A stretch of 64,000 nt of DNA from a virus. The stretch covers positions 39,354 through 103,353 of IMG/VR virus record IMGVR_UViG_3300032291_001296, one strand, 5' to 3'. Shown here piece after piece: positions 2,853 through 63,959 of the stretch. The notes below the pieces were generated by a model that saw only the letters and a list, made by a program, of their open reading frames with translations, did not search any database and was not told where the DNA came from. Position 1 is the stretch's first letter. Each line of letters starts with the position of its first letter. A program made the position numbers and the translations under genes.

Positions 2853-5800
2853 TTATTGATTACAACCTTGATCTTCTTGGTCTTTTATAGTTTTCTTTTC
2901 TTCAGGAGTTGTAGCATCCCATTCTTCTTGTGTTACACTATCAGGTTTTTCACTTACAGTTTCTGTAGGTTCAACTATCACTTCAGAAATACCTTGATAT
3001 ATCATTACAACATCATTGTCACTCACCTCACCTGATTTGATTTGTTTACCTTGAGCATCTGTAGCTTTCTCTACTTTCTCATATCCATTATCTAATACAG
3101 ATGATCTTTCGTAATCATAATATTCCTGAGCTCTGAATGAATCTCCCCATGCGTTGATAGCTTTGAAGATGTGTTTCACATACACCTTTCCATTTTTTTC
3201 AGTTACATCAACCAATGGAATTGGATTACCTTTCTCGTCTTTTGTATATACTTTTTGTAATAACACTTTATGTATGTGAGAGTAGTCTCCATTTTTCTTT
3301 CTTTTCATTCTTTCTGCATAAGGAATAGAATCTTCCCAGCTATATGTAATGAAATCATTTCTTCCATCACCAAAAGGACTAATACCTATCACCATTGGAA
3401 GAGCTCCATTATTCATAGCTTTCTTCAATTGTCCAGGTGTAAAGTATTGATTAGGATCATATAAGTTAGCACCTCTTCCATAATTAGATTTATTCAATAG
3501 CATCTTAGCTTTCATAAATGGAATGATGGTATAATTATTCCAGTTATTTCTTTCAAAAACACGTAGCTTTTGGAAGTCAGCTAAGTTAGGCATATTTTCT
3601 AAATTAGACAATGTTTGATTATATATTTCTTTGAAATCTTTATAAGGAAGAAGGTTAGTGAAAGCAATAGGAGAATTAGTAAGTCCTGATTGAATTACAG
3701 CAAGTCTTACAAGTTTTCCATAAAGATCTTTTCCTTCACCATCTAAATACTTTTTCAATTCTTCAAATCCATATATGATAAGGTTTTGATCATACACTTT
3801 ATTATCTCTTCCTGCAATATATAGATTATCAGCTTTACCTTCTTTAATACCAGCTTCCATCTTAATAGAGTTAAGAATGATGTTATTGAATAATGGATGA
3901 TCCTCTTTAGGAGCAATTCCTTTGTGTTTGTTTCCTAATATAGAATCTCTGAAGTTAATGATCTGTTGAGCAGCACTTTCTTTTGTACTGGTTCCTAATA
4001 ATATATTTGCAACATTAATATTAATGTTTCTATCAGTTTGTACAGCCCAGTCAAAAAGATCATTCACTGCTTTCTGACTCACCTTAACAAACTCTCTATC
4101 ACTTAGTTTCACATAAGGAGTTAACACTTCTTCCATTACAGATCTTACATTAACTTTATCAGATATAAGGATTTCAGAAAACGCATCTCTTACATTAAAT
4201 ATAGTGTCTTTAAGAACTCCTTTAAATGAACTACTTAATAGTTTATCTACAGAAGAGATGATAGATTTTCTAGCTTTCTCTAATTGAAGTCTTTTCTTAA
4301 ATACTATATATGGATCATTGATTACAGCAGTATCAAAGTTAGATCCTTGTACTACATCAAACAATTGAGATGCCATTTTAGAATACTTGATAAACTCTTT
4401 TAGTATGTATTGCTGTTGTAGTTTTTGAATACCATCCATTTCATTTTTCATTCCAGCTTTATTATACTTAAGCATTTTAAATAGATCAGCTTCTGATGGA
4501 ATTCCAGAAATAGTAGGTCTTTGTTTAACAGGTATAGATGATTCATATGCCTCTAATGTAGAGTTCATTATACCATCATTAAATAACCACGTGTATCCAT
4601 TGTTATCTAATGAACGTAGGTAGTCTTTAATGATAGGTTGGTTCATGAAATACGCAACAGTATTTACAGGTACACCAACTTTAATTAAGAATAACCAAGT
4701 GGAAGCTACGTTTTGTGTAGCACCAAGTCTCATAATCCATGGACCCTTAGAGATATCCACATATCCATCTATGAACTGTCCAATGATATCAGATATATAT
4801 TTACCAGCTTTGTTCTTAATTAATGATAGAGTAGGTCTTATTTTACCATCAACTACAATTGTATTATACTCTTCAAAGTTAATATTTGGATCAGTAGCAA
4901 ATGTATTTGAAAGTGGATTACCACCTAGTATTTCTCTATCTACAGGGTCAACATCTTTTAATTTATCAAAATCAATATATGTTGCAACACGTTGATTATC
5001 AGCATTGTTAGTTTGACCAGTAGCAGCAATACCAATTGCATATTTACCAGATACAAACGCTTGTCTTAAAGCAGACATAAATGTTCTACTTAACATGTTT
5101 CCTACATTACCATAGTCAATCTCTGGATTACCCATCTCTTCATTAATCTCTATAGATAGATTCTTCATCTCATCTGCAGAGTTAGGTTTGATTAAGTTTT
5201 CAAAGTTTGATTCATGACTAACTAAGTTCTGTAATGATTGAATATATGCATTCTCAAGAGATTGTTTATACCATACCTCTGCTTGTTGTTCTGCCCAAAC
5301 TTCAGTTAATGCTTCATCTGTAAGCTTTTCTAATTTTCCTTGTTTCTCTTGGATAGTTTTAATTAATTGAGCTTGTACCTCATCAGCATCTAATTGACCA
5401 TCTTGAACTTGTTCTGGGAACCAATCAGTGATGATAGGTAACCATTTGTTTCTAGTGTAGTCATCAGCTGTACTATCTATAATATTTTGGAATATTTCAT
5501 AAGTACCTTTAGATGAGTTTACAGATTTTGCTTGTTTGTAGATTTCTGCATTATTATTTTCAATAGCTATAGCTTTGAATTTATCAATAGCTTGTTGACC
5601 ATATCCTAAGAAAGGAACCATTCTTAATTTTCCTGAAGCATCAGAATATACATTCTTTAAGTAGATCGATAATTTATCGATATCAAAATCCGATCCAACC
5701 TTCTTAACAAGAGCTGAAGGAACAACAACGTTATCACCAAAGTCTTTTGGTAAGAATTGTTTGATAACAAAACTATCAATAGAGTTTTGTTTCTGTGTAG

Positions 5801-8800
5801 GAATACGATATCCAATACCAGATAATATAGACTTACCTTCGTCTGTATCGTTTAGATAATCAAGAAGTTCTTTATCTGACATGTTTCTAGTTTGAGCATT
5901 GTCAAACCATCTAGAAATCATTATCTCACATACACGCTCACCATCTGCATTTTTATAAAACTTAAGTATATCAGATGTATAGCTGTATTTAACATTTCCT
6001 TTCTTGTCTTTGAATTCTTTTCCTTGAATACGATTAGACTCAAGAAGTGTAGAAGGAATCTGTACCTTCATACCTCCTGTTATTTTTTGAGAAGCAATGT
6101 TTTTATCAGCAATAGAATAAAGAATATTTCTAATTTGTTGGTATGCAGGAGTAGCTTCTAATACAACATCACCAGATTTAAATCCTTCAAGAGCGTCAGT
6201 GATATTATCATTCACCTCTCTCTTCAATATCTCATCACTTAATGTTTTGATCAGTTTGTCTTTATCTAATATGGTGAATGTAGCTTTACCATTTTCATCA
6301 ACTCCTTGTGTAATACCAAGTTTTTTCAATAGAGTTTTATATCCTTCCTCTATCTTAGCTTCAAGAAGTCTTTGGTTGTTTGCTATCTCTTTGTATAATG
6401 GAGAAGCTTTTTCTTTTTCTGCTTCTGTTTTAAGCTCACCCCATGCAACAAAACGTTCATTGATATCTTCAATAACATTTCCTTTCTTATCTTTAATCTC
6501 AAAGTCAATTGGTACACCAGCATCCATGAAGTCCATGGTTACAAGTTTTGTAATCTGAGATCCTTGAGTTACTACTGGGTTATCTTTAGAAGGAACCTCA
6601 GTTTGTAATCCCATAATAGAGAATGGAATGTTATTTAACTCTTTAAAAGAAGCTTCATTGAATTCTCCTGAAGGAAGATAAAGAGGAGTAGCTTCACCAG
6701 CTCCCACTTTTCTACCTGATGCATATACAGCATAATCTGCATTCTCTCTTTGCATTTTATTATACATCTTAATTGCATTTGAATCAGGATTTAATTCATG
6801 CATTATTCTAAATGATAATGGAACCAAAGCGAACTTATCTAATACAACATCATTGTAGTTTTGTCCATCCACTTTATTTCCTGATACAATAGGTTTAATA
6901 GCAGTGTAAAGACTTCTTATGTTAGGATTTTTTCCAACGTATCTAACTTCACCAGATGAGTCAGTTGTCTTTTTAATATTAAATGCTTTCTCCTCATCAG
7001 TAAGAACAAGTCCTTGATTTCTTTTTTCTTCTTCTGTTAACCCTTCGCCTTTAACAACTTTCTCATATGCTATATCATATCTATATTGTTTCTCTTTAGC
7101 ATCATTCCATTGACCTGTACGAAGAAGGAATACACGAGTTGCTTTCAATGAAATCAATCCACCACCATCTGTTTCTTCATATGCTTTCATGTATTCTTCA
7201 AAGTCTGCAGTAGAGAATACATCATCAATCACTGTAGATACAAAATGATCTACATTCATATCTGTATATCCTATATCTCCAGGAGCAAACCCTTTATTGT
7301 ATTGCTCATTTAATGCAGAATTAACTTTGTTAGAACCATATAATAAAGCTTGTCTAGGTGAGTTAAAGTTTTTAATACGTTTCAACTCATCATTATATTG
7401 ATAAGGATCTGAATAAACAAGTTTATGCATCTCTATATTAGCTATCATATAGTTAGTAGATAACACTTTCAACTTGTTCTCATATTCTTCTTTTGATAAA
7501 ACATCATCTTCAGAGAATGATAATCCTTCAGTTTCTACTCCTTCAGCAGTCGTGTATACAGCACCAAATTCTCTAAGTACTCTATCTGTAGTTGATGCAT
7601 CTTGAGCTATGAAACTATTAACAGCAGCGTTTATTTCTTTCTTATTATCTTCATATAGTTTTTCTGCAGATTTTTTAGAATTAGTTTTAGACATAATCTG
7701 ATTATGTAGCTTATCTCCTAGAATAGATTTGAAGAAACGTAAGTCTGTTGATTTTCTATCACCAACTACTTTTCTTCCATCTCTAGCAAGTGCCACTTCA
7801 GCCATAAAATAATTTCTAAAAATCTCTAAGTGCTTACCATTTTTAAATGCTTCTTCTGTAACAAATGGATCATCCTCATTATGCATCTTAATAGCATGCT
7901 CAATAGAAGCATCTCCTGGTACAAGGTTCTCATATATACCTCCTAGGTTAAGATTGATTCCTTGTAAGAATCTTTGTTTAGCAGAAAGCTTAGAACTCTC
8001 TTTCTTGTTACCAGTTTGTTCATTAACTGTTCCATCAATGAACACAGGTTTCATAAGATCTTCTGTACCAGCAATACGTCCACCATCACCATCTTCTGCT
8101 AAGTCAAACATCTTATTTAACATCACGCTACTATCTTTAGCAAATACGTCTGTTAATAAATAGCTGTATGAAGAGAACCCTTTAGTTGCATCATTTAACT
8201 GTCTGATGTTACTTAATTTAGAAAGTACATCATGAATAGAACTAATAGCATTAGTTCCAATAAATGATTGTGTACGCTCTCCATTGATATTGAAATATGT
8301 ACTTTCAAAATCAGGGTTTTCAAGAATAGCTTTTATAGTTCCTAATTGAGTAAGACGTTTATCTATATCCAATGTCTTAGCACTAAGTGTAGCAACATCT
8401 TCTAATCCAGCTAAACTTTTTTGAATTCCTTCTACAGCTTTTCTAAATAATCTAAGTTGATCAGGATTCAAACTATTTTTAATTTGGTCTCCAGTCATTG
8501 GTTTTTTAGAATCTCCTATGATAAAGTTTATTCCCATACCTTGCAAGAATGCAACATATTGATCTAATTGACCTGAATTAAATTTAATGTTTTTAGTAAT
8601 TGTTTTAGGATTGTATTTTTGTGTTTTAGTGTTGTAGAATAAATAATCATTGTTATCTGTTCTAGTTGCTTCAATGATGTTATTAATCATCTCACGCTTA
8701 GCTTGTCTAGCAGCTCCACTTAATACAGAGTTACCAATCACCACTTCACCTGAAGGAAGAATAAACACTGTAACAACATCTGCATTCTGTTTCTTCATTG

Positions 8801-11800
8801 CGTTCCAGAAAGCTGTCATTAATTGAAGATCATGTTGTTTCAATGAATCCCAATTAATTTTTTCTTTAATAGAACTTCCTCCTGTTAAACGTCTATATAA
8901 AACTTCAAAGTTTGGATTAGCTTTAGCCATTGCTCTAAGTCTCTCAAACATCTCATCAACATTTACAGAATCATGTAATGAATTCATTAATGTAACAAAT
9001 GCTTGATCTGCAGGCATTAATACAACACCACCAACTGTAGAGATTTCAGGAATAATTTCACCTTTAACTATTTTAGTTTTAGGAAGTGTAGCTAATAAAA
9101 GTTTTACTACACGGTTTGCTTTTCTGAAAGAGTCAATCTTTCTAGCATCCATGTAATCTGATTTACCAGAATTGTCTTCATCGTTTAAGTTAAGCTCATC
9201 GTTCTCATCAAACTCAATAGCATAAGACTTAAGATGCTCTTCGTGTTTCTCAACAATAGCAGGCCAATCTTTTTTGATGTTATCAAATAAATCTTTTAAA
9301 GCATTGATCTCTGGAGTGATCTCTTTTTCTGTTTTTGTTTTATCATCTACTTGTGCATATAACTGATCTCTAAGTTCAAGAACACAATCTTCTAAAATCT
9401 CTTGTTTAAGTCTAGCATATAGCTGAGCTTTCTTAGGTTTCTCCACTTCAAAAAGACTTTGACTAGTTTGAGATAGATAAGACAATGTACTGTATGTCAT
9501 GTGTTGAATAATATCATGCAATTGTGTAGCAGGGATATTTTTCACTTTAAGTCTGAACTCAGACGTTTCATCACCTTCAGCAGATTCTATATCTTGAATA
9601 CCTTTATTAGCATAAGATAGTTTTGTTTCAAATGGATTGTATTGTGCATAGTATCCATTACCTATCTTAGCAAATAACTCTTTTGTATTTGTTTGAGCTT
9701 TTTCTCCTGTAAAGAAACCTTTAATGAAGTCAATCAACTCAGAGAACATTCTACCAATTAATCCTTTTGATGCCATTGGTTTACCTAACTTATCAGCAAG
9801 AACAGCATCTCTGAATTCCTCAGCAAGTTGTTCTTTAATTTGATCAGCTATAGCATATTTATATTCAACTCTTTCACCAGTCTCTCTATCTATAAATGAT
9901 CCTTTTCTTTTTCTGAACTCATCAAGAATAGCTTGTTTCTCTTCAGGACCAGCAAACATTTTCCATACAGCTTCAAACACCTCATGATAAGCAGTACCTA
10001 TCTCAGCATTTTCATATACGTATATAGCAGCATTATGAAACATACCCCAAGCTTCTCTACCATTAGTAGCTTGAATGATATTCTTCACTCTATATATAGG
10101 AACATTTGGCATCACCTTTTTAATAAACTCTCCCACCTTATTCCAGTTCTCTGGAACAATAGTATCCATTTTATTTGTGATAGCTAGTCTATATAGTTTT
10201 CTTGATCCTTTTGATTTAGGTTTAGCAGGTGTATTCCAGGTAACATCATCATCCTCTTCTATTTGTTCAGGAGTTATTTCTTCTTTACCTTCTATATCAG
10301 AAACTTCTTCTTCTACTACAGGAGCTGGATCAGCAACTGGAGGAAGATTTGGAACTTGTTGTTGTACAAGTTGTGGAGCTATTTTCTTTTCAATAGCTTT
10401 AATTAAAATGTTAGCTGCTTTGTTATGATCTACTTTCTTTTGTTCAGCTAAGTTAATAATAGCATCTGCAGACTCATCTAGATTGATATCCACTTCACCT
10501 TGCTCATTAGCAAAGTACATAACTGTTCCATAGTCAGTTTCTAATATATTAGGAGTGGCATCATCAAAATTAACAACTTCATCACTCACTGCAGCAGCTG
10601 GTTTAGCTACAGGAGCAGGTGCAACAGGTGCAGGTTCTGTAGCAGTTTGTGTAGCTGCAGGTTTATTAATTTTATTCTCAACAGCTTTTATTAAGTTACT
10701 AATTGCCCAGTTTTGAGCTTCCTCATCTGATTTTCCAACAGCAGTCTTTTTCTTTGCTAATTCAAGAATAGCATCTTCAGAAGCTTCTAAATCAAGTCCT
10801 ACGTTACCTTCTTCATCTACAGTGAATACGATATCTCCTAGATCAGGATTGTTAATTGTATTAGGTGTAATACCATCAAATGCAAATTCTTCTTTAGCTG
10901 TAGACTTATCTTGTGAAATAACTGGTTGAACAGCAACTACAGCTGGTTCTGGTTTAACATATGTTCTACCTGTACTATTCAATGTGAAATAGATTCCATC
11001 TCTATTAGTAGGTTGACTTTCTGTAATAGGTCTAAACTGTGTAGCTAATGGAAGTTCTTTATTATCTCTAGCTATAGTTAATTTACCATTAGCATCAGGA
11101 GCTTTATCTGATAATAAATAAGTTTGGTAGTTAGGCCATTCTCTATTTATAGGATTTCCTTCAGAGTCAATGCCTGTGATTTCATAGTATGGATTATTCC
11201 ATCCATCACTGTTCACTCTTAAAGAGTCTGTATTATTATACATCTCTTTAAGTAATGAAATGATAGCATCTTTATTATTTTGTAATGATGTAGGTGTAAA
11301 GTCAAAGTATTCTTTTGAATCTTTAGCAAGACCAGACATAAATAATTTTACAACTGGTTCACCATTATCATCTTTAACTGTTTCAAACCAGATGTTGTTA
11401 TATCCTGCAGGTTTTCTTTTTCCACTTTGATCTTTTGCAATACCCCAATAAACTACAGATTTTAACCAATTGAATAAGTCTTTAGAACTATCATTTATTT
11501 CACCATCTCTTAAAGCATTCTTTGTAATCTGATGCATTACATCAAATATAGTATTAGCTTCTTTGTCAGTGAATTTTCTATTGAATAATTTAGCTAGTCC
11601 TCTTCCAGGTATTCTTAAGAACACTCTACCAGTAGGAGTTGCAAAAGTTACTGATCCTTCAGATACAGATTCACCTGTTGTAGCCACCTCAACTACAGGA
11701 GATTTTCTTAATCCTGATTGAGTTACAAGACCTGCAGCTTGTGCAGAAGTTCTTGCTGCTTTATTTGTAACTTCATTTCCTGCTTGATCTTTATATGTAA

Positions 11801-14800
11801 CAAGTTGTGGTTGACCAAATGAAGCAGAGAAATCTTGCATATCATCTGCAGTTAACTCCACTTTAGATAATTGATCAGCAGACCATTCTTTATATTGTTG
11901 TTTTAATGATTCTTGTTCTTCAGTTAATGAACCATCTTCAGTTTCTTTTCTAAACATAGAATAAGTCTCACCATCATATGTAGCTGTAAGATCTGTGTTT
12001 GGAAATACTTGATAGATAGCATTGTTGATTTTATCTTCATCATTAAGAATAGGTTGACCATTTTGATCTACTACAGAGAAAGATCCATCTAGGTTATCTT
12101 GTACTACAACCATGTAGATGATTTCAGCTTTAGCTCTTTCTTTTCTTTCTCCCTCTGCCATATCTTGAAGGAAGTTTTCTGTAAGCCCAGGAAGAATATC
12201 ATCTTCAGTTTTAGTTGTAACAATCATTCCTTTAAGTTGATTCTTATTAGGGAATGTTTCTAACTTATTACCAAAGAAGTTTACTCTCTGTTGATGAGGA
12301 ACTAAATCATTAGTTGGTTTTGTTCCACCTACTACTGAAAAGTTATCTTTCTTAGCCATAGGCTCATAAGATTCTTTACCAAAGAAGTTTTGAATAGCAG
12401 TGGTAAGTGTACCAAGAAGATTCTTTTTCAACGTTTCATTATCACGCATTCTCTTCTCTTCAGCTTCTCTAGCTTTCTCATCTTCAGCAAATTGTTGGAA
12501 TGTATCCAATATCTTAGCTTTAGCCATTTGCTCAGCAATAAGATTGTCTAATCCAATTTTAAGATCTGCTATTTCTTTAACAAGACTTTCTGCTTGTTTA
12601 GAAAGCTCAGGAATCTTTAACTCATCTGCAAAGTCATTTATATCAGACTCTAGTTGTATAACCTTCTCTGTGAATCCTTGTCTATTTTCAATAAACATTC
12701 TTGCTCCTTCTTCTCCTAAGAATCTTTCTACATTAGCTTGTAGATCCTCAAGGAACAATGGAACATTAGGATTTTCTTCTTTTAATCTTTTAATATAGTC
12801 ATCAAATATAGATAATGCTTTTTGTAGCATATCATCTATTTGTTGCAATAACTTATCACTTGATTTGATAGACTCATTTGTTATATCAATAAAGTCTTCT
12901 AATGCATTGATGTCTTCTTTTAATTGTTTAATCATCTTCACACTATTCTGTGGAAGAGTCTCCATATTATCTAAGAATTCTTTAAAGAAAGGAAGTGTAG
13001 CTTCTAATTCTGCTTTCTCTTCTCTTAATGCAATGTTTTCTTTCTCAACTGTATCACGTAAGTTAGCCAGTGTATTAGTTAATTGTTTAAGAATAGTGGT
13101 AGGTCTTTTACGAACTTTACCTGCTTTAGTAAGACTTTCTTTAGCTATCTCAGCTTCTAAACGTTCTTGTTCTTTCTGAACAGCTTCTTTACTATTCTCT
13201 AACTTCTTATTGATTTCCTCAAGACGTTTAACAGTGTTCTCATATAAATCAGTGATGATTCTGTTTCTTGTTTGAAGCTTTTGTGATATGGTGGTTTCAG
13301 CACTAACAAACTCATCCATAGCTTTTTGCTGTACAGCAGTTAGATTACCAATAGGTCTGATACTAGCTCCAGAATATCCTTCTGCAGCAACAAACATTGT
13401 ATTCCAAACTTCTGTTCTTTGCACTTTACCATTCTCATCTACATATACAAATGTAAGTTTGTCTTTCTTATTGTTGTATTCTAACCTACCTTCAACTGGA
13501 TCACCATTTGATTTCTTAATATTATAGTTTCTGAATACAGTGTTCTGATGTTTCTCAAAGTAATTAAACTTCTTATCAGTCAACATCAAACTAGCTGGTG
13601 TTAAGCTATAACTTTCAAACTCTTCAGCAGATACATCTCTAACATTACCATTAGAAGCTTTAATCTTAATGGTACCATCTTCATTAATTCCTAATACAGT
13701 TAATCTAGGTTGACGATAAACTTCTTTACCACCTGCAGAATACTCAGTCACTTTACCAAGTACATACTCTGTACCTATCTCAATGTCTCTATTACCATTT
13801 TTAGTTTTAATTGTAATAGTTTCTTTAGGACCTTCATCAATTGTTTCTAACTCTACTGGTTGTTCTTTATAGTTTTCTGGATTCTTTTTAATCTCATCAT
13901 ACTCTTTTACAAACATTCCTCTCTTAAGAGTCATCAATGCTGAATCATCAAGAGCTTGAATTAAATCTTCTTTTTGATCACTAGTAAGTTTACTATCTGC
14001 TTTTATTTTAGCTAAAGCTTCTTCATAGCTTTCTTTCTTCCCTTCAGATATATCTGAAAGAATTTGATCTAAATTATCAACGTTACCAATAAGCTTCTCA
14101 GAAACTCTAGCAATTCGTTTATCATAGTCTGCAAGTTTAGTACCAGCATAGATTAATTTATCAATCACTGCAGGTGGATACATTTGTGAACCATCTTCAT
14201 TAACTTTACCTCCATAACGTAAGCTAAGAGATTGATACATTGTTTTTACATTGTTAGCTGTTTCTTCGAAGTTAGCTAACCTAGCCAAGTATGCTTCTTT
14301 TGTATCTGTAGCAAGAGCTTTACCTTCAGCTTGTAATTGAGAGAATCCTTCATCTGTACTAGCTAATGTTCTTTGATCATTTATATCAGCTCTAACAAGA
14401 TCAAATCTACCATATTTAATACGAGGTGTTAGGTAGTTGATAATGTAATCTGTTTCTTTATCTTTACTCTCAGTTAAGTTTCCTTGTTTTAAAAGTCTTT
14501 CTCTTTCTTCTTGAAGAGCGGTTCCTCTATTTACAGAATCAATAGTTTCTTTAGTGAAGTCTGAAAATCTGTATTGATTAAATTGCTCAACAGCTTTAGC
14601 TGTATTTGCAGCTTTTTCTTTGGCCTCCATATAATTACCTCTAGCCATCATTATAGATCCAGATAATCCACCAATAAGAACATTCTTAGCTCCTTCATCA
14701 GAAGTAAATCCTTCTTTTATACCAACACCTATAGACTCTAACCAATCAGTAGCTTTACCATCATATTTTTTATTATAATAGTCTTGTGTACCCATTTGGA

Positions 14801-16145
14801 CAGCATACTGAGCACCCTCTTCAAATCCTTCAGATGGAGAGAATAAATATGGTCTTACTTTATTTAATGTAGATAACACTTTATTCTTAGGAACTACTGC
14901 AGCATATTTACCAGCAGCATCTACTGGAATGTCTCCTATTTCTCTAGTAACATTGTTCATTATTCCTTTTTCAGCAGAATATGAACTTCCTAATATTTTA
15001 GGGAACTGAATGTAGTTAGTAGCACTTAATAAAGCAACGTTAGCTGCAAATGATGAGTTACCTACAGCATCAGCATCAGCATTAATCTTTTCAAGATCAG
15101 CACCTACTGGGTCTAATCCATTGTGATTATCTTTATACTCTTGTATTTTTTTATTTCTAAAATCATTAAGATTTGTATATGCTTCAAATCCTGCTTCACC
15201 ACTTGTAGATAAACCAGCAACAACAGCTCTATGTCCTTTCTCAAGAACATTATATTTTCTTAAGAAAGCATCATTTAATCCTTTTATTTCTTTGTATGCT
15301 GTAGAAGATGCATCAAGACCAATCATAGCTTCTTCTGATGCAGCTAATGCTTCAGCAGCTTGACCCATAGATAATAATCTAGCAGCACCTGGAAGTGCAG
15401 AAAGTCCTTTTAATGCAGCAGAATAAACTCCTCCTGTTAAATAAGCACCAGCAGCAAATCCCATATTCTTAACAACACCATCCCATAAGAAGTTACCTGT
15501 CATGAAATAATCAGGAGAATACCATTTACCATTCTTCTCTTTATCTGTATAATAGTTTGGAAGAATATCTTCTGCTTTTCTATTCATTTCATCTAACTGT
15601 CTGTTAAATTCATTATCATAGAATGATGCAAATCTACCATCTGCTCCCCATCTAGCTAATCCATTAACTAACCCAACTGTACCTTGTAAGAATGTTGTAC
15701 CTGTAAGTAAAAGTCCTTTACCTACACCATTAACCATTTTAGAAGGCCAACCTTGTCCTTGAGCATACGCATCCTCATTATTATAATCACCAGGAACAAA
15801 GTTATCATATCTGTTAGATGACACTTCATCAAGAGTTCTCATTACACTTCCTCCATCTTTAGTAGGAGTTGGTGTAAGTAAAAAGTTCTCTAATGATTTT
15901 AAATCACCAGTTTCACCATCTCCAGTAATAAGTGGTAGAGTATTTGGTGGAGTGTATACATTTGGTTTACCTGCATAATTAGGAAGTGGCTCTTGAGGTG
16001 TTGGAGCTTTATATCCACCAAAAGCATGTTCCATATACATTCTATCTAACATAGGAGTTTCTACATTCAATTGTGTAGGAACAGGGTTAACTGGTGCTGC
16101 ACCATTCTGAGCGATGTCAATTGATTCTAGATTTTTTTCTGACAT
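2853..16145 (-). CDS. Giant virion RNA polymerase protein (4430 aa)
   Basis: The D-F-D-I-D motif at residues 3486-3490, in the context VGSDFDIDKL, matches the catalytic Mg2+-binding double-psi beta-barrel loop of crAss-like virion RNA polymerases (phi14:2 gp66 and YonO type). This enzyme enters the cell with the DNA and transcribes early genes. The N-terminal 400 residues include glycine/alanine-rich hydrophobic segments suited to ejection. A long coiled coil lies near residues 950-1100. Two similar acidic domains near 1755 and 1859 are joined by Pro/Ala linkers. A zincin-like segment (TAYHEVFEAVW, H2054-E2055) follows, with a later LAEEF. At 4430 aa it is far longer than phi14:2 gp66 (about 2180 aa), so several cargo functions may be fused in one chain. 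It starts 19 nt after the preceding gene. Confidence 0.9.
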   Translation of the reverse strand: MSEKNLESIDIAQNGAAPVNPVPTQLNVETPMLDRMYMEHAFGGYKAPTPQEPLPNYAGKPNVYTPPNTLPLITGDGETGDLKSLENFLLTPTPTKDGGSVMRTLDEVSSNRYDNFVPGDYNNEDAYAQGQGWPSKMVNGVGKGLLLTGTTFLQGTVGLVNGLARWGADGRFASFYDNEFNRQLDEMNRKAEDILPNYYTDKEKNGKWYSPDYFMTGNFLWDGVVKNMGFAAGAYLTGGVYSAALKGLSALPGAARLLSMGQAAEALAASEEAMIGLDASSTAYKEIKGLNDAFLRKYNVLEKGHRAVVAGLSTSGEAGFEAYTNLNDFRNKKIQEYKDNHNGLDPVGADLEKINADADAVGNSSFAANVALLSATNYIQFPKILGSSYSAEKGIMNNVTREIGDIPVDAAGKYAAVVPKNKVLSTLNKVRPYLFSPSEGFEEGAQYAVQMGTQDYYNKKYDGKATDWLESIGVGIKEGFTSDEGAKNVLIGGLSGSIMMARGNYMEAKEKAANTAKAVEQFNQYRFSDFTKETIDSVNRGTALQEERERLLKQGNLTESKDKETDYIINYLTPRIKYGRFDLVRADINDQRTLASTDEGFSQLQAEGKALATDTKEAYLARLANFEETANNVKTMYQSLSLRYGGKVNEDGSQMYPPAVIDKLIYAGTKLADYDKRIARVSEKLIGNVDNLDQILSDISEGKKESYEEALAKIKADSKLTSDQKEDLIQALDDSALMTLKRGMFVKEYDEIKKNPENYKEQPVELETIDEGPKETITIKTKNGNRDIEIGTEYVLGKVTEYSAGGKEVYRQPRLTVLGINEDGTIKIKASNGNVRDVSAEEFESYSLTPASLMLTDKKFNYFEKHQNTVFRNYNIKKSNGDPVEGRLEYNNKKDKLTFVYVDENGKVQRTEVWNTMFVAAEGYSGASIRPIGNLTAVQQKAMDEFVSAETTISQKLQTRNRIITDLYENTVKRLEEINKKLENSKEAVQKEQERLEAEIAKESLTKAGKVRKRPTTILKQLTNTLANLRDTVEKENIALREEKAELEATLPFFKEFLDNMETLPQNSVKMIKQLKEDINALEDFIDITNESIKSSDKLLQQIDDMLQKALSIFDDYIKRLKEENPNVPLFLEDLQANVERFLGEEGARMFIENRQGFTEKVIQLESDINDFADELKIPELSKQAESLVKEIADLKIGLDNLIAEQMAKAKILDTFQQFAEDEKAREAEEKRMRDNETLKKNLLGTLTTAIQNFFGKESYEPMAKKDNFSVVGGTKPTNDLVPHQQRVNFFGNKLETFPNKNQLKGMIVTTKTEDDILPGLTENFLQDMAEGERKERAKAEIIYMVVVQDNLDGSFSVVDQNGQPILNDEDKINNAIYQVFPNTDLTATYDGETYSMFRKETEDGSLTEEQESLKQQYKEWSADQLSKVELTADDMQDFSASFGQPQLVTYKDQAGNEVTNKAARTSAQAAGLVTQSGLRKSPVVEVATTGESVSEGSVTFATPTGRVFLRIPGRGLAKLFNRKFTDKEANTIFDVMHQITKNALRDGEINDSSKDLFNWLKSVVYWGIAKDQSGKRKPAGYNNIWFETVKDDNGEPVVKLFMSGLAKDSKEYFDFTPTSLQNNKDAIISLLKEMYNNTDSLRVNSDGWNNPYYEITGIDSEGNPINREWPNYQTYLLSDKAPDANGKLTIARDNKELPLATQFRPITESQPTNRDGIYFTLNSTGRTYVKPEPAVVAVQPVISQDKSTAKEEFAFDGITPNTINNPDLGDIVFTVDEEGNVGLDLEASEDAILELAKKKTAVGKSDEEAQNWAISNLIKAVENKINKPAATQTATEPAPVAPAPVAKPAAAVSDEVVNFDDATPNILETDYGTVMYFANEQGEVDINLDESADAIINLAEQKKVDHNKAANILIKAIEKKIAPQLVQQQVPNLPPVADPAPVVEEEVSDIEGKEEITPEQIEEDDDVTWNTPAKPKSKGSRKLYRLAITNKMDTIVPENWNKVGEFIKKVMPNVPIYRVKNIIQATNGREAWGMFHNAAIYVYENAEIGTAYHEVFEAVWKMFAGPEEKQAILDEFRKRKGSFIDRETGERVEYKYAIADQIKEQLAEEFRDAVLADKLGKPMASKGLIGRMFSELIDFIKGFFTGEKAQTNTKELFAKIGNGYYAQYNPFETKLSYANKGIQDIESAEGDETSEFRLKVKNIPATQLHDIIQHMTYSTLSYLSQTSQSLFEVEKPKKAQLYARLKQEILEDCVLELRDQLYAQVDDKTKTEKEITPEINALKDLFDNIKKDWPAIVEKHEEHLKSYAIEFDENDELNLNDEDNSGKSDYMDARKIDSFRKANRVVKLLLATLPKTKIVKGEIIPEISTVGGVVLMPADQAFVTLMNSLHDSVNVDEMFERLRAMAKANPNFEVLYRRLTGGSSIKEKINWDSLKQHDLQLMTAFWNAMKKQNADVVTVFILPSGEVVIGNSVLSGAARQAKREMINNIIEATRTDNNDYLFYNTKTQKYNPKTITKNIKFNSGQLDQYVAFLQGMGINFIIGDSKKPMTGDQIKNSLNPDQLRLFRKAVEGIQKSLAGLEDVATLSAKTLDIDKRLTQLGTIKAILENPDFESTYFNINGERTQSFIGTNAISSIHDVLSKLSNIRQLNDATKGFSSYSYLLTDVFAKDSSVMLNKMFDLAEDGDGGRIAGTEDLMKPVFIDGTVNEQTGNKKESSKLSAKQRFLQGINLNLGGIYENLVPGDASIEHAIKMHNEDDPFVTEEAFKNGKHLEIFRNYFMAEVALARDGRKVVGDRKSTDLRFFKSILGDKLHNQIMSKTNSKKSAEKLYEDNKKEINAAVNSFIAQDASTTDRVLREFGAVYTTAEGVETEGLSFSEDDVLSKEEYENKLKVLSTNYMIANIEMHKLVYSDPYQYNDELKRIKNFNSPRQALLYGSNKVNSALNEQYNKGFAPGDIGYTDMNVDHFVSTVIDDVFSTADFEEYMKAYEETDGGGLISLKATRVFLLRTGQWNDAKEKQYRYDIAYEKVVKGEGLTEEEKRNQGLVLTDEEKAFNIKKTTDSSGEVRYVGKNPNIRSLYTAIKPIVSGNKVDGQNYNDVVLDKFALVPLSFRIMHELNPDSNAIKMYNKMQRENADYAVYASGRKVGAGEATPLYLPSGEFNEASFKELNNIPFSIMGLQTEVPSKDNPVVTQGSQITKLVTMDFMDAGVPIDFEIKDKKGNVIEDINERFVAWGELKTEAEKEKASPLYKEIANNQRLLEAKIEEGYKTLLKKLGITQGVDENGKATFTILDKDKLIKTLSDEILKREVNDNITDALEGFKSGDVVLEATPAYQQIRNILYSIADKNIASQKITGGMKVQIPSTLLESNRIQGKEFKDKKGNVKYSYTSDILKFYKNADGERVCEIMISRWFDNAQTRNMSDKELLDYLNDTDEGKSILSGIGYRIPTQKQNSIDSFVIKQFLPKDFGDNVVVPSALVKKVGSDFDIDKLSIYLKNVYSDASGKLRMVPFLGYGQQAIDKFKAIAIENNNAEIYKQAKSVNSSKGTYEIFQNIIDSTADDYTRNKWLPIITDWFPEQVQDGQLDADEVQAQLIKTIQEKQGKLEKLTDEALTEVWAEQQAEVWYKQSLENAYIQSLQNLVSHESNFENLIKPNSADEMKNLSIEINEEMGNPEIDYGNVGNMLSRTFMSALRQAFVSGKYAIGIAATGQTNNADNQRVATYIDFDKLKDVDPVDREILGGNPLSNTFATDPNINFEEYNTIVVDGKIRPTLSLIKNKAGKYISDIIGQFIDGYVDISKGPWIMRLGATQNVASTWLFLIKVGVPVNTVAYFMNQPIIKDYLRSLDNNGYTWLFNDGIMNSTLEAYESSIPVKQRPTISGIPSEADLFKMLKYNKAGMKNEMDGIQKLQQQYILKEFIKYSKMASQLFDVVQGSNFDTAVINDPYIVFKKRLQLEKARKSIISSVDKLLSSSFKGVLKDTIFNVRDAFSEILISDKVNVRSVMEEVLTPYVKLSDREFVKVSQKAVNDLFDWAVQTDRNININVANILLGTSTKESAAQQIINFRDSILGNKHKGIAPKEDHPLFNNIILNSIKMEAGIKEGKADNLYIAGRDNKVYDQNLIIYGFEELKKYLDGEGKDLYGKLVRLAVIQSGLTNSPIAFTNLLPYKDFKEIYNQTLSNLENMPNLADFQKLRVFERNNWNNYTIIPFMKAKMLLNKSNYGRGANLYDPNQYFTPGQLKKAMNNGALPMVIGISPFGDGRNDFITYSWEDSIPYAERMKRKKNGDYSHIHKVLLQKVYTKDEKGNPIPLVDVTEKNGKVYVKHIFKAINAWGDSFRAQEYYDYERSSVLDNGYEKVEKATDAQGKQIKSGEVSDNDVVMIYQGISEVIVEPTETVSEKPDSVTQEEWDATTPEEKKTIKDQEDQGCNQ
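10430..10900 (-). repeat. Tandem protein-domain duplication inside the RNA polymerase gene
   Basis: Two copies of an acidic domain of roughly 70 residues lie about 103 residues apart (near residues 1755 and 1859). Each reads F-D-x-x-T-P-N near the start, then a central 'G-x-V-x-x-x-L-x-x-S-x-D-A-I' stretch, and ends in 'IKAxExKI'. Pro/Ala-rich linkers separate them. The copies have diverged in DNA sequence, so the duplication is old. Confidence 0.75.
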
Positions 16146-38393: not shown

Positions 38394-39839
38394 TTAACCG
38401 AATATATAAACTTCTCCATCACCTTCACCTACACTAATTGTTTGTGATGCATAGAATTGACCACTTCCAATTGAACGAACTGCTGACCAATCAACATCAT
38501 CATCACAACTAATTTCAACAAATGTAGTTGTACCTGCATATATTATCCATATACCTCCAGCATATCCTGGTTGTTTTTCACCAACACATATAATGTCTCC
38601 ATTAGAAGCTGCTGATATACTAGTCCAATATCCTGGTGATGTAGGTAATGAAACAAAAGATCCAGTTCCTCCAGTTTGTTTCCAAACATTAGATGGACCA
38701 CAAATATACACATCTCCATTAGGAGCTACAGTGATATCTCTTGCTCCTGAACTAGGTGTTGCTCCATGGTATGTAAATCCACTTGCAGATACCGCTCTTG
38801 TGTAAACAGCACCAGCATTATCAACTGTCCATAAAGTATCATCTTGATCTACATATAATCCTCTCCAAGAATCATTTCCTGCAAATGGAATAATAGGAGT
38901 AAATGTAGATGAACTAAAAGGTTTTACATATAATGTACCACCATTAACTGCACCATATACATTACCAGAAGAATCTGCTGCAAGAGCTGCATTAATTGCA
39001 CCTGAACTAGCAACAGTAGACCAAGGACCTCCTACAGGATATTTATAAACAACTCCACTAAGAGTACATCCATATATAGTTCCATCAGGAGCAGTAGTTA
39101 ATGCTGACCATTGTTGAGCATTTGTTGATACTATAGAACTAGGACAATAATCATAAACTGTAGTTGTTGTAGTTGTAGTACTAGATGTACTAGATGTGCT
39201 AGTAGTTGATGTACTACTAGTACTAGTTGTAGATGTACTAGAACTACTTGTAGTAGTAGTTGTTGGTGGTGTAGTAGTAGTTGTAGTGGTGGTTGATGGA
39301 CAAACCCCTGAAATACAAGCACCACCTGTCGTAACTGTTACTAAAGGAGCATGTGTAACTCCACAACATCCACAATAACTATTAGTAGCATTTGGTTGTA
39401 TTATAGTGTACTGAGTAACTCCTGAACAATCATTATATTCTATTTCTTGTATTGTTGGTTCTCCATTATAGAAAATTATACAATTACAAGGTATAGCTGT
39501 TGTAGTGGTAGTTGTAGTAGGTCTAGCTGTTGTACTAGTACTAGTTGTTGTAGGAACAGCTGTAGTAGTGGTAGTTGTTGTAGGACAACATATATTAAGC
39601 TGCTCATTAATGTTAATTATATCTTCTGAAATAAGCATTAACTCTTCAGTAAGATTTGTCACATCATCTGTAAGGTCACTTACACTACTATTTACATCAC
39701 ATATAACAGCATCGAATTTAGCAAGAACTGTATTTAAGTTATCACAAGTATCTACATCTGTACAAGGAAGTGGAGTGCCATCATATGTGATAGCACTCGT
39801 TCCTTTTATTGTTGTATTATTTATATTTGAGCAAGCCAT
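38394..39839 (-). CDS. Fibre protein with Thr linkers and C-terminal beta-propeller (481 aa)
   Basis: The start is MACSNINNTT at 39839, giving a TAATATG junction; the upstream in-frame ATG (39899) only reads the previous gene's threonine codons in another frame as Gln/Leu. Layout: an N-terminal domain with a CC-ended coiled coil (1-85), Thr linker, a Cys domain (PCNCIIFYN ... YCGCC, 'GACISGVCP'), a long Ser/Thr linker, then a propeller-like repeat region from about residue 240. The propeller blades have phrases such as 'LTTAPDGTIYG', 'LAADSSGNVYG', 'ITVAPNGDVYI'. It probably displays a glycan-binding propeller. No threonine tail at the C-terminus. Confidence 0.7.
   Translation of the reverse strand: MACSNINNTTIKGTSAITYDGTPLPCTDVDTCDNLNTVLAKFDAVICDVNSSVSDLTDDVTNLTEELMLISEDIININEQLNICCPTTTTTTTAVPTTTSTSTTARPTTTTTTTAIPCNCIIFYNGEPTIQEIEYNDCSGVTQYTIIQPNATNSYCGCCGVTHAPLVTVTTGGACISGVCPSTTTTTTTTPPTTTTTSSSSTSTTSTSSTSTTSTSSTSSTTTTTTTVYDYCPSSIVSTNAQQWSALTTAPDGTIYGCTLSGVVYKYPVGGPWSTVASSGAINAALAADSSGNVYGAVNGGTLYVKPFSSSTFTPIIPFAGNDSWRGLYVDQDDTLWTVDNAGAVYTRAVSASGFTYHGATPSSGARDITVAPNGDVYICGPSNVWKQTGGTGSFVSLPTSPGYWTSISAASNGDIICVGEKQPGYAGGIWIIYAGTTTFVEISCDDDVDWSAVRSIGSGQFYASQTISVGEGDGEVYIFG
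39158..39300 (-). repeat. (ACN)n repeat encoding a Ser/Thr linker
   Basis: On the minus strand this is an imperfect run of ACN and AGT/TCT codons encoding about 45 Thr/Ser residues between the Cys domain and the propeller of the 481-aa fibre gene. Such repeats never form stops in any frame on that strand, which explains several shadow ORFs here. Confidence 0.85.
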
Positions 39840-60262: not shown

Positions 60263-61570
60263 ATGGGTAAATACAGATTTAAAACAGAAGAAGAGTTTAA
60301 GAGTGATGATCTTTGGAATTATGAATACAATTGTCCAAAAGGTTGGAATGATTTAGGTAGAATGAATCATTTCTTTGGTCAAGATGTTCCTGATCAACAT
60401 GACGAAACAATTGATAAAGGTCATGGATTTATATTCGAAGGTTGGACAATCGCTGCTTGTGAATGTACAATCAAAGAAGAAGAACCAATAGATCTCTTAA
60501 ACGTATTAGAGCACATTAATAAAAATTCCTTAATAACAAAAAAGAAAACAATGAGAAAAGAAGCAAAGATTACAGTGGAAAACACAACACAGAAGTTCGT
60601 ATTCATGGACAAAACTATCAACATCCTAAATGTAGGACTTGCAACAAGCAAGAATGTTGTATTATATGGTCCAGGTGGGCATGGTAAATCAGAGATCACA
60701 TTAGATTTCTTAAAATCAAGAGGTATAGATCCTTACATCATTACAATGGGTACAGGTATGACTACAGACAGATTGTTTGGTGGTCTAGATATTCCTACAT
60801 TTGAGAAGACAGGTAAGATTGAATACCTAGTAGATAATTCATTCATGAATCATGAGTATGTTATCTTCGAGGAGTTGTTTGATGCACCAGATTTCATATT
60901 AGAGCAACTAAAAGATATTTTATCTAGTGGTACATTCAGAAATGGTACACAGATATATGATATCAAAACCAAGTTTATTGTGTGTTGTACTAACAGAACT
61001 CGTGATGAATTCTCTAAGAATATGTCATTGAAAGCATTAATGGAGAGATTCCCTCTTGAGCTTAATGTAATATGGGACAATTACACAGAGATTACATACA
61101 ACAAATTGTTAGAATCTAAGTTTGGTGAAGATAATGTGGATCCAGTGATTCCATACTTATTACAAGAGTATGCTAAGAATGGAGTGACCATTTCACCTCG
61201 TGTTGCTGTAACAGCATATCAAGTGTATGATGAATGTGGTCCTGATGCATTAGCATTCATTGCAGAGTTTGCAAAGAAACCATCATTAATTGCTGAAGCT
61301 ATCAAGAAATTTGAATCTACACTTAAGTTTAGAGATCTTGCAGCTAGTCTAACAGAATGTGTTAATATATTGAGCAGTCTTCCATTAGCTACAAGAGATG
61401 ATGAGAAGGTGTATAAAGCTCAAATGAAGAAACTTGAACACCAAATCAAAGACATCAAAGGATTAACTGTTAGCGATGATCTTGCTTCTACACATGCAGA
61501 GCTAATGAAAGGTGCTACACAGATGTTGGATAAAGCTAATAAAGAACTAACAATAGTTTCATTCTTATAA
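60263..61570 (+). CDS. MoxR-type AAA+ ATPase with N-terminal extension (435 aa)
   Basis: Walker A is G136-P-G-G-H-G-K-S143; Walker B is in 'YVIFEE' (E203-E204); sensor 1 is N244 in 'FIVCCTNRT'; 'ISPRVAVTAYQVY' fits the sensor 2 region. MoxR ATPases remodel target proteins with a VWA partner, here the next gene, whose ATG overlaps this stop. Residues 1-96 form an additional domain (GWNDLGRMNHFFGQ, 'HGFIFEGWTIAACECTI'). An early motif and an in-frame ATG at residue 97 (60551) may allow a shorter 339-aa form. The client protein is unknown. Confidence 0.85.
   Translation: MGKYRFKTEEEFKSDDLWNYEYNCPKGWNDLGRMNHFFGQDVPDQHDETIDKGHGFIFEGWTIAACECTIKEEEPIDLLNVLEHINKNSLITKKKTMRKEAKITVENTTQKFVFMDKTINILNVGLATSKNVVLYGPGGHGKSEITLDFLKSRGIDPYIITMGTGMTTDRLFGGLDIPTFEKTGKIEYLVDNSFMNHEYVIFEELFDAPDFILEQLKDILSSGTFRNGTQIYDIKTKFIVCCTNRTRDEFSKNMSLKALMERFPLELNVIWDNYTEITYNKLLESKFGEDNVDPVIPYLLQEYAKNGVTISPRVAVTAYQVYDECGPDALAFIAEFAKKPSLIAEAIKKFESTLKFRDLAASLTECVNILSSLPLATRDDEKVYKAQMKKLEHQIKDIKGLTVSDDLASTHAELMKGATQMLDKANKELTIVSFL
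60527..60538 (+). promoter_or_regulatory. Early motif inside the ATPase gene
   Basis: A perfect TCCTTAATAACA lies inside the open frame, 12 nt before the in-frame ATG at 60551 (MRKEAKITVEN). It suggests a second start within the gene. Confidence 0.5.
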
Positions 61571-62958
61571 TGGCAAGTATATGGGGAGATGGGTATGATG
61601 ATTGGTATGGCGATTATTATACCCCAACCTATACTCCTAAGAAGAGTAAAGGTGGTTGGAAGAGTAAATATAGTGGTGGTTGGTCAAAGACTTGGTCATC
61701 ATTCTCATTTACTGCAGAGCTAGGTGATGACAACAGTGATTTGTTTGTTAAAGATCCTGTAAGCTACATTACACCAACAGCTAAAGAGATTAAGAAGAAG
61801 GTGACTGCTACAAAGCAAACATCTATTGATACAATCAAAGAATTAGCTCGTGTATGCTATCTAAAGATGATAGAGGATAAAGATTATATAGCAGAGAAAT
61901 TTGTTGATTATGACAATCTAGAAGAAGCTGAACAAAACACATACAATCAGAAGAAAGGATTGTATGATGATATATTTGATCAGTATATTCCTGGATTCAC
62001 ACCATTGGAACAAGCTATTTCTATCTATCTGAAGATAAGAACCACACTCACTGATGAATATGGTGATCCAATTGAGGATGATGAAGAAAAACTTGAAATG
62101 AAGAATCCATTGGATTTTGATAGAAAGATATATTCTGATCCTAACATCAATGAGCAACTAGAACTAAATGATCTAAGTAAGAATAGAAAGATGGAAATAC
62201 TAAATCATTTATCTCTTGTTGGTGCATTTGGATCTGAGTTCAAAGTGGAAAAAGAAATCTCTGAGAAGATTGTTAGTAACTCTGATGAGTATGCTAAGAT
62301 GATTATGAGAGATTATGCACAGTTTCACATGATTGATCTATATCAGAAGATGTTCCCTAACTTCGCAACAAAGTTCTTAACTAAAGATTTGACAGTAAAT
62401 GTACCTGTTGATAGAAAAGAACAAATCCAAAAGATCATCATCATTCTAGATTATTCTGGAAGTATGGATGACACTGAGAAACAAATTTGGGTCAATGCTA
62501 TATTAATAGACAGATTCAAATATGTTATGCAAGGTGAAGCTGAAGTGTTCTTTAGTTATTTTGTTGATGAAGTGGAAGATCTTAACTTCAGACACATTAA
62601 AGATAGAGAAGATGTAATAAACTTCTGGAGAACATTCTCTAATAGTCCAAATGGTGGTATGACAGAAGTAGGATTAATGGTTGAACATATTGCTAGTGAA
62701 ATAGCAATGGGAAAACTATGTAACTTACAGGTTGATCTTTCACAAGAGAAGCCAGAGATATTAGTCATCAATGATGGCCAAGATGAAATTGGTACAGAGC
62801 AATTCCCTTACAAAGTGAATGCTGTGTCACTAATGGAGTTTAGTAACGAACTTAAAGACCTTTGTAATGCTACAGGTGGTAAACAAATCGAAGTTGATTA
62901 CAATGGAGATGTGTATAGTCATTCTGCAGAGCTTGGTGCTCAGCTTATAAAGATTTAG
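61570..62958 (+). CDS. VWA-domain protein, partner of the MoxR ATPase (462 aa)
   Basis: The metal-ion-dependent adhesion site is complete: D294-Y-S296-G-S298, T365 in 'GGMTEVG' and D402 in 'VINDGQDE'. Residues 1-50 are Gly/Trp/Tyr/Lys-rich and flexible. The middle part is helical. MoxR-VWA pairs act as chaperone-like machines that insert metal or remodel complexes; in a phage this might act on host or virion proteins. The start overlaps the ATPase stop (TAATG), indicating coupled production. Confidence 0.85.
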   Translation: MASIWGDGYDDWYGDYYTPTYTPKKSKGGWKSKYSGGWSKTWSSFSFTAELGDDNSDLFVKDPVSYITPTAKEIKKKVTATKQTSIDTIKELARVCYLKMIEDKDYIAEKFVDYDNLEEAEQNTYNQKKGLYDDIFDQYIPGFTPLEQAISIYLKIRTTLTDEYGDPIEDDEEKLEMKNPLDFDRKIYSDPNINEQLELNDLSKNRKMEILNHLSLVGAFGSEFKVEKEISEKIVSNSDEYAKMIMRDYAQFHMIDLYQKMFPNFATKFLTKDLTVNVPVDRKEQIQKIIIILDYSGSMDDTEKQIWVNAILIDRFKYVMQGEAEVFFSYFVDEVEDLNFRHIKDREDVINFWRTFSNSPNGGMTEVGLMVEHIASEIAMGKLCNLQVDLSQEKPEILVINDGQDEIGTEQFPYKVNAVSLMEFSNELKDLCNATGGKQIEVDYNGDVYSHSAELGAQLIKI

Positions 62959-63323: not shown

Positions 63324-63397
63324 AGTCAGGTGGCGGAATTGGTAGACGCAATCTGTGTAGTGGGCTAAAGTTACAGGTTCGAATCCTGTTCTGACTA
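63324..63397 (+). tRNA. tRNA-like gene with leucine-type D arm
   Basis: Acceptor AGTCAGG/TCTGACT (one G-T pair), D arm GCGGAATTGGTAGACGC as in tRNA-Leu, T arm ACAGG-TTCGAAT-CCTGT and discriminator A; CCA is not encoded. The anticodon arm is poor: the best fit is AATCT-GTGTAGT-GGGCT with one mismatch and two wobbles, which would read GTA, at odds with the leucine D arm. The variable region is short. It may be degenerate or have a special role. Confidence 0.65.
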
Positions 63398-63483
63398 CAA
63401 GGAGTTTCAATCTCAAGTGCTGGGTAGCTATGCTATCAGATGAGCCCATCAAAATTGATGACAGTTAGGAAAGACTAGCAATT
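63398..63483 (+). other. Spacer with hairpins between tRNA and tmRNA
   Basis: Contains TAGC/GCTA (around 63426) and CATCAA/TTGATG (around 63448) hairpins and no gene. May hold processing sites. Confidence 0.4.
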
Positions 63484-63831
63484 GGGGATGACATGGAATT
63501 GATTGAATATGTTATTCGTTAATGTTCAGCCAGAGAGATAACTGTAAACTAAGGTGAATTGATTAAATGGCAAAAACACAAGTCGTGTAGTGTCTCTAGG
63601 AGATAACGCACAAGTAGAAGCTAACATGAACAAAGTATTCTCTTTAATTAGAGAAGAAGTTGCTGTAGCAGCCTAAACATTCAAAGATTTCTCTGTTAGA
63701 TTAAACAGAGTGGTGGATTCGTTAAGCTAAGCTTGACCCCTTCTAGCGTAAAGAGTTTAAAGAAACGTGAAGCTGTATAAAACATTGATGATCAAGTATT
63801 TAAGACCTGAGTTCGAGTCTCAGCATCTCCA
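63484..63831 (+). ncRNA. ssrA: Transfer-messenger RNA (phage ssrA)
   Basis: The tRNA-like ends are complete: GGGGATG (63484-63490) pairs with CATCTCC (63824-63830), giving G3-U70, the alanyl-tRNA synthetase identity pair, plus discriminator A. The T arm CTGAG-TTCGAGT-CTCAG is perfect. The 5' part (GACATGGAATTGATTG) resembles bacterial tmRNA. The tag frame starts at GCT 63620 after TAGAA, as E. coli uses TAGTC then GCA, and encodes ANMNKVFSLIREEVAVAA, stop TAA at 63674-63676. Stems TTCTCT/AGAGAA and CTCTGTT/AACAGAG fit the tag hairpin and a pseudoknot. It would rescue stalled ribosomes and tag proteins for degradation. SmpB is not in this window. Confidence 0.9.
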
Positions 63832-63834
63832 CAA

Positions 63835-63924
63835 GATCTGAAGGTCATTGTAGCTAATGGCACCTAATTAAAGGGAGAACCCTCATTGTTTAGGAGATTG
63901 CAGGTGCAAATCCTGTTCAGATCA
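63835..63924 (+). tRNA. tRNA-like gene with enlarged anticodon loop
   Basis: Acceptor GATCTGA/TCAGATC, D stem GTCA/TGGC, anticodon stem CCTAA/TTAGG, variable AGATT and T arm GCAGG-TGCAAAT-CCTGT are all in canonical order and spacing, with discriminator A. The anticodon loop is 22 nt, not 7, because of an insert that forms AGGG-AGAA-CCCT. No anticodon can be assigned. It lies 3 nt after the tmRNA and before a terminator. Confidence 0.7.
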
Positions 63925-63929
63925 CAACA

Positions 63930-63959
63930 AAGCCTCTATTACAGAGGCTTTTTTATTTT
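63930..63959 (+). terminator. Terminator of the RNA gene cluster
   Basis: AAGCCTCT/AGAGGCTT is a perfect 8-bp stem with a 5-nt loop, followed by TTTTATTTT. Confidence 0.9.

Follow-up and report, generated by a model that had tools for sequence, protein, structure and literature searches.

The 64,000-nucleotide window analyzed here (positions 39354–103353 of a 103,353-bp virus record) contains a one-piece tmRNA gene at 63484–63831 on the plus strand, which we consider, with a probability of roughly 0.7, to encode a functional phage tmRNA whose extended tag consists of two parts. Judged from its sequence, it is most likely a working rescue RNA that would use host SmpB and add a two-part degron. 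The window also encodes a Crassvirales major capsid protein (PF23898), a terminase, and a P22-like portal, and by these predicted proteins the phage is a member of the Crassvirales.

ARAGORN calls the tmRNA at 63484–63832, and the Rfam covariance model RF00023 matches over its full length at 63484–63834 with 73.6 bits (E 1e-26), against a gathering score of 47 bits. The permuted two-piece model RF04321 reaches 18.6 bits, below 47, and the gene order is standard. The acceptor stem is formed by GGGGATG (63484–63490) and CATCTCC (63824–63830), which pair at seven of seven positions and place G3 opposite U70. The T arm, CTGAG-TTCGAGT-CTCAG (63807–63823), is perfect and is covered by the Rfam match. 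Since the model matches and the acceptor strands pair, the complete phage-encoded tmRNA proposed in an earlier note on this DNA stands, as does its description of the G3–U70 pair and the T arm. A 7/7 acceptor stem, a 5/5 T stem, and G3–U70 are kept in 106 of the 107 loci for which both ends were located (the window locus included), and stem bases covary among these relatives. The tmRNA has ACAA at its 3′ end; CCA is therefore absent from the gene and must be added.

tmRNAs typically contain four pseudoknots. At the PK1 position lies a conserved element, AGAGAGATAACTG-AAACTAAGGTGAA (63532–63558, plus strand), a hairpin whose inner stem covaries in variants, the pairings identified by eye being CAG/CUG, GGG/CCC, GAG/CUC, CCG/CGG, GUCA/UGAC, and CGUUG/CAACG. 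PK2–4 of the window tmRNA align poorly in the RF00023 match.

The gene is preceded on the same strand by a tRNA-Tyr (GTA) gene (63324–63398; ARAGORN and Rfam) and followed by a terminator-like intrinsic hairpin with a T run (63929–63951, plus strand). Between tmRNA and terminator, 63835–63923 folds into an 89-nt tRNA-like cloverleaf (z −3.05) with no ARAGORN call and an Rfam score of 14.7 bits; it is possibly a degenerate or unusual tRNA, and the sister locus L090 does not have it. Just upstream of the RNA genes, 60263–62958 encodes a MoxR-type AAA ATPase (bpMoxR, PF20030) and a 462-residue protein with no Pfam or PHROG match. The neighboring protein encoded at 61570–62958, used as bait for relatives, retrieved two loci only. 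A 4430-residue open reading frame occupies 2853–16145 on the minus strand, a length usual for the giant proteins that crAss-like phages encode.

The same RNA was found by BLAST in Flavobacterium psychrophilum phages (FpV4 and others), in Cellulophaga phage phi14:2 (Crassvirales, Steigviridae), and in Cellulophaga phages Calle and phi38:1 (both Pervagoviridae); the host of the window phage is assigned only from such relatives. At least 119 viral contigs, a few of which are the same isolates, contain the PK1-position pattern AGAGAGATAACTGN{1,8}AAACTAAGGTGAA, which has zero matches in a set of 84,980 bacterial and archaeal genomes, one per species. Among the phage records opened, only that of Calle, whose tmRNA belongs to the same lineage as that of the window, carries a tmRNA annotation; in the available part of its description the gene is annotated as a tmRNA only, and the tag is not discussed (PMC8776804). 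In FpV4, phi14:2, and phi38:1 the tmRNA is unannotated, and in the latter two small hypothetical proteins are annotated across it.

Several relatives carry additional elements. The T loop is interrupted (between GGGTT and CGA) by group I introns of approximately 700–870 nt in the tmRNA genes of L006 (3701–5020), L042, L097, and L113, and probably of L039 and L102; the L006 intron, from the gut crAss-like phage cr128_1, contains a reverse-strand open reading frame. T-loop introns are known from bacterial tmRNA genes (PMC11915505). The tag of the cr128_1 tmRNA is apparently short (GNTYRAAA, read by eye), and the long tag described below is thus not common to all crAss-like phages. Contigs that share the window's tmRNA lineage carry a GOLLD RNA with an internal tRNA (L109:6195–6708) and a hatchet ribozyme (L102:3304–3454), and in L014 and L245 the tmRNA lies beside large tRNA arrays (about 18 or more tRNA genes in 8–13 kb).

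Comparison of loci places the resume codon of the window tmRNA at GGC 63569–63571, 51 nt upstream of GCU 63620, and the tag is accordingly read as 35 residues rather than 18. The predicted tag, GKNTSRVVSLGDNAQVEANMNKVFSLIREEVAVAA, is encoded at 63569–63673 and ends at the stop codon TAA (63674–63676, plus strand). A stop codon in the same frame, two codons ahead of GGC, rules out an extension further upstream. The GGC is preceded by UAAAU (63564–63568), with U at −5 and A at −4 as in E. coli U85/A86. In E. coli, frame selection depends on the five bases that precede the resume codon, among which A86 (−4) matters most (PMC2481249). Flavobacteriaceae tmRNAs share the U-A context at −5/−4, for example UAAAC or UACAC before GGC.

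The reading frame is held across the lineage. A GGN or GAC codon stands shortly 3′ of PK1, in frame with a conserved ANM motif, in all 78 distinct ANM-bearing tags (78/79 of all distinct tags). The distance between the two takes nine values (15, 18, 24, 27, 30, 36, 39, 42, and 51 nt), every one a multiple of three, whereas chance alone would put one independent spacing in three in frame; the sequences are related, so the counts are not independent events. In the 51-nt spacer class the tag frame contains no stops, whereas the other two frames contain 53 and 12, and pN/pS in the tag frame is moderately below one (0.72, against 1.14 and 1.20). Over the first 30 nt from ANM, pN/pS is 0.37 in the tag frame and 1.19 and 1.75 in the others; the smallest spacer class, only six sequences of 18 nt, gives an uninformative 1.20. 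Relative to the GGN/GAC codon, all 121 loci have A at −4 and 120 of 121 have U at −5, counts that are not independent evidence because the search expression partly required a TAA-like context, although it did not require the reading frame. A separate search with the tag-core codons alone retrieved six tmRNAs with a differing PK1 (L240, L241, L244, L245, L246, and L247), all with U-A at −5/−4 and ANM in frame. Four of these are identified as tmRNAs by Rfam (L240, L244, L245, and L247) and L246 by ARAGORN; support for L241 consists of a homologous 5′ end and the frame. A protein-coding frame in three contigs of the same sequence (L239, L242, and L251), also returned by this search, was judged a chance match.

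The 79 distinct phage tags are 24–49 residues long. Their conserved core, Q-[VI]-x-ANM-xx-V-[FH]-[SN]-[LI]-[LI], reads QVEANMNKVFSLI in the window (63611–63649, plus strand) and is predicted to be helical. ANM was itself built into the search expression; Q is present in 78/78 and V in 77/78 distinct tags. Among 31 distinct core 10-mers Q, ANM, and V are nearly invariant, and the flanks vary in length. The core codons vary (CAA/CAG, GCT/GCA/GCC/GCG, AAC/AAT, GTA/GTT/GTG), which indicates that the amino acids rather than the RNA letters are conserved. ANM is missing in three of 124 loci, two of which are cut by contig ends; the third, L037, is a true exception with a 49-residue tag ending in VAIAA. 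At its C-terminus the window tag has EVAVAA (63656–63673, plus strand), which by comparison resembles a degron. VAA ends 41 of the 79 distinct tags, IAA 10, LAA 10, and MAA 6; overall the last residue is Ala in 78 and the end is Ala-Ala in 74, other ends including MVA, LVA, and VGV. The long frame predicted for phi38:1 is GNNTNAVNAQIEANMEAVNAILNLEVAVGV. The N-terminal, core, and C-terminal modules are combined differently from tag to tag (L016, L028, L057, and L071, for example), as recombination would give.

AlphaFold2 predicts a helix over residues 10–34 of the window tag with a mean pLDDT of 88 over residues 11–30, which for a short isolated peptide is weak evidence. Derivation of the tag from a known protein was rejected, as searches gave no PDB relative and no Pfam family above cutoff, with a sub-threshold Pfam match only. 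A query of phage records with the tag matched tmRNA loci only.

A tmRNA was found in 28 of 28 bacterial genomes retrieved with a flavobacterial SmpB sequence that was used only as bait. A direct pattern gives the host tags as GENNYALAA in 23 and GEGNYALAA in four; ARAGORN reports the same type and one GENTYALAA. The 35-residue window tag is unlike this nine-residue type in sequence, and the conserved core was not found in the bacterial tags examined. The AVAA ending, called atypical by the earlier note, does differ from the ALAA of the 28 host genomes compared. The tag of Caulobacter is known to end in AVAA, and a hydrophobic-Ala-Ala end is the rule among these phage tags; the ending is thus not the unusual part. 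What is unusual in the predicted tag is its length and its conserved internal motif. Neither the window phage nor 27 further phage records encode a detectable SmpB, and ClpP gave no match above cutoff in these 28 records (one sub-threshold match in G035); control genomes were positive in both searches. Phage-encoded versions of either protein were therefore discarded, and the phage tmRNA would have to rely on SmpB and proteases supplied by the host.

The frame described above has to be set against the 18-residue tag given by the earlier note and by the ARAGORN call in the window, in which translation resumes at GCU 63620 and the codons before it form a leader that is not translated. The 18-residue frame is real, but the 35-residue frame contains it as its 3′ portion, and with the resume codon placed 51 nt upstream the shorter tag is not supported. 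The UAGAA ahead of GCU resembles the UAG-type context of E. coli; here it merely ends the codons GTA-GAA, and the base at −4 of the corresponding GCN codons is A in only 50 of 121 loci (C in 49, T in 22), for which reason GCU 63620 was rejected. This start would also leave outside the tag the Q that is invariant three residues before the A of ANM, and would not account for one frame held over nine spacings; ARAGORN's starts are, moreover, erratic among homologs. We regard the 18-residue tag as very improbable. A functionless relic of host ssrA that integration or excision left behind is less credible still. Phages often integrate into tmRNA genes. Such integration has been raised for another flavophage (PMC11590407). 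Here, however, the whole gene is present, its PK1 motif has no match in the genomes of the 84,980 species, its tag is unlike host tags, its stems covary, and its amino acids are under constraint, and the possibility was set aside.

Two further explanations accept the long tag and differ over what it does. It may be a degradation signal only, in which the core has no dedicated partner and serves as a spacer or a sequence for ClpXP engagement. The degron-like C-terminus of nearly all tags, with its almost universal final Ala, fits this; a mere spacer, however, would not be expected to hold Q, ANM, and V nearly invariant over 31 core 10-mers with flanks of varying length, and we consider the explanation unlikely. 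Alternatively, the tag might sort or stabilize products rather than destroy them, its helix binding a host or phage protein and the phage-encoded RNA changing the fate of stalled products in competition with the host's tmRNA. A conserved predicted helix without counterpart in host tags and the few ends that depart from the Ala-Ala form are in keeping with this, but the degron-like Ala-Ala of 74 of 79 distinct tags speaks against it, and we think it decidedly unlikely.

We therefore favor a rescue RNA with a two-part degron, which could operate as follows. The tRNA-like domain is intact and carries the alanine identity pair G3–U70. It would be charged by the host alanyl-tRNA synthetase, and host EF-Tu and SmpB would load the tmRNA onto ribosomes stalled on broken mRNA, an event that infection should make common. 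Translation would resume at GGC 63569, in the host-like context seen on comparison, and 35 residues would be added after the charged Ala. The hydrophobic-Ala-Ala end (VAVAA) would direct the product to host ClpXP. Least certainly, the helical core may serve as an additional recognition site, read by Lon or by an adaptor, by which the phage would control the capture of tagged proteins, ribosomes still being rescued. The suggestions of the earlier note that a phage copy protects translation during host decay or redirects proteolysis are plausible.

The phage tmRNA shares with the bacterial one-piece form of Flavobacteriaceae (RF00023) the tRNA-like domain, G3–U70, U-A at −5/−4, a GGN resume codon, and an Ala-Ala end. 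It differs from that form in having a tag of 24–49 residues with a conserved core, another PK1 element, and carriage by phages. The E. coli ssrA tag has 11 residues, with a site for the SspB adaptor and a C-terminal LAA signal for ClpX; its two-part layout is akin to that proposed for the phage tag, although the adaptor site is unlike the phage core. The nearest precedent is the extended tag of Mycoplasma, which is likewise long and is recognized by Lon, with several proposed protease contacts (Ge and Karzai 2009, as cited in PMC3985003). Mycoplasma lacks ClpXP and its tag ends in AFA (PMC3985003), whereas phage tags mostly end in hydrophobic-Ala-Ala. The commonest tmRNA tag length in a 2025 database of 97,179 sequences is 10 residues, with very short tags also present (PMC11915505).

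Phage tmRNAs as such are already known. They were found in 402 of 18,146 phage genomes (PMC9004378), and those listed include Bxz1 and G (PMC4131195). The mycobacteriophage Bxz1 group, Bacillus phage G, and methylophage Melnitz carry complete tmRNAs that, as here, depend on host factors, but their hosts are unrelated and the Melnitz tmRNA is two-piece and permuted; no conserved long tag is described for them in the literature examined. For a long phage tag with a conserved core, a search of the open-access literature gave no earlier description. Standard software misreads such genes: ARAGORN makes no tmRNA call at 48 of 124 loci, some of them truncated at a contig end, and places tag starts erratically in the remainder.

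It is possible, though we put it forward only tentatively, that this is a phage-only tmRNA lineage spread over several flavobacterial phage families, whose helical tag motif routes stalled products to a partner that host tags do not use, and thus a rewired degradation pathway for rescued products. The phage tag offers a concrete bait for a ClpXP or Lon adaptor in Bacteroidota. Tags of 24–49 residues with a conserved motif and exchanged spacer modules suggest that phages have altered the fate of proteins from stalled ribosomes.
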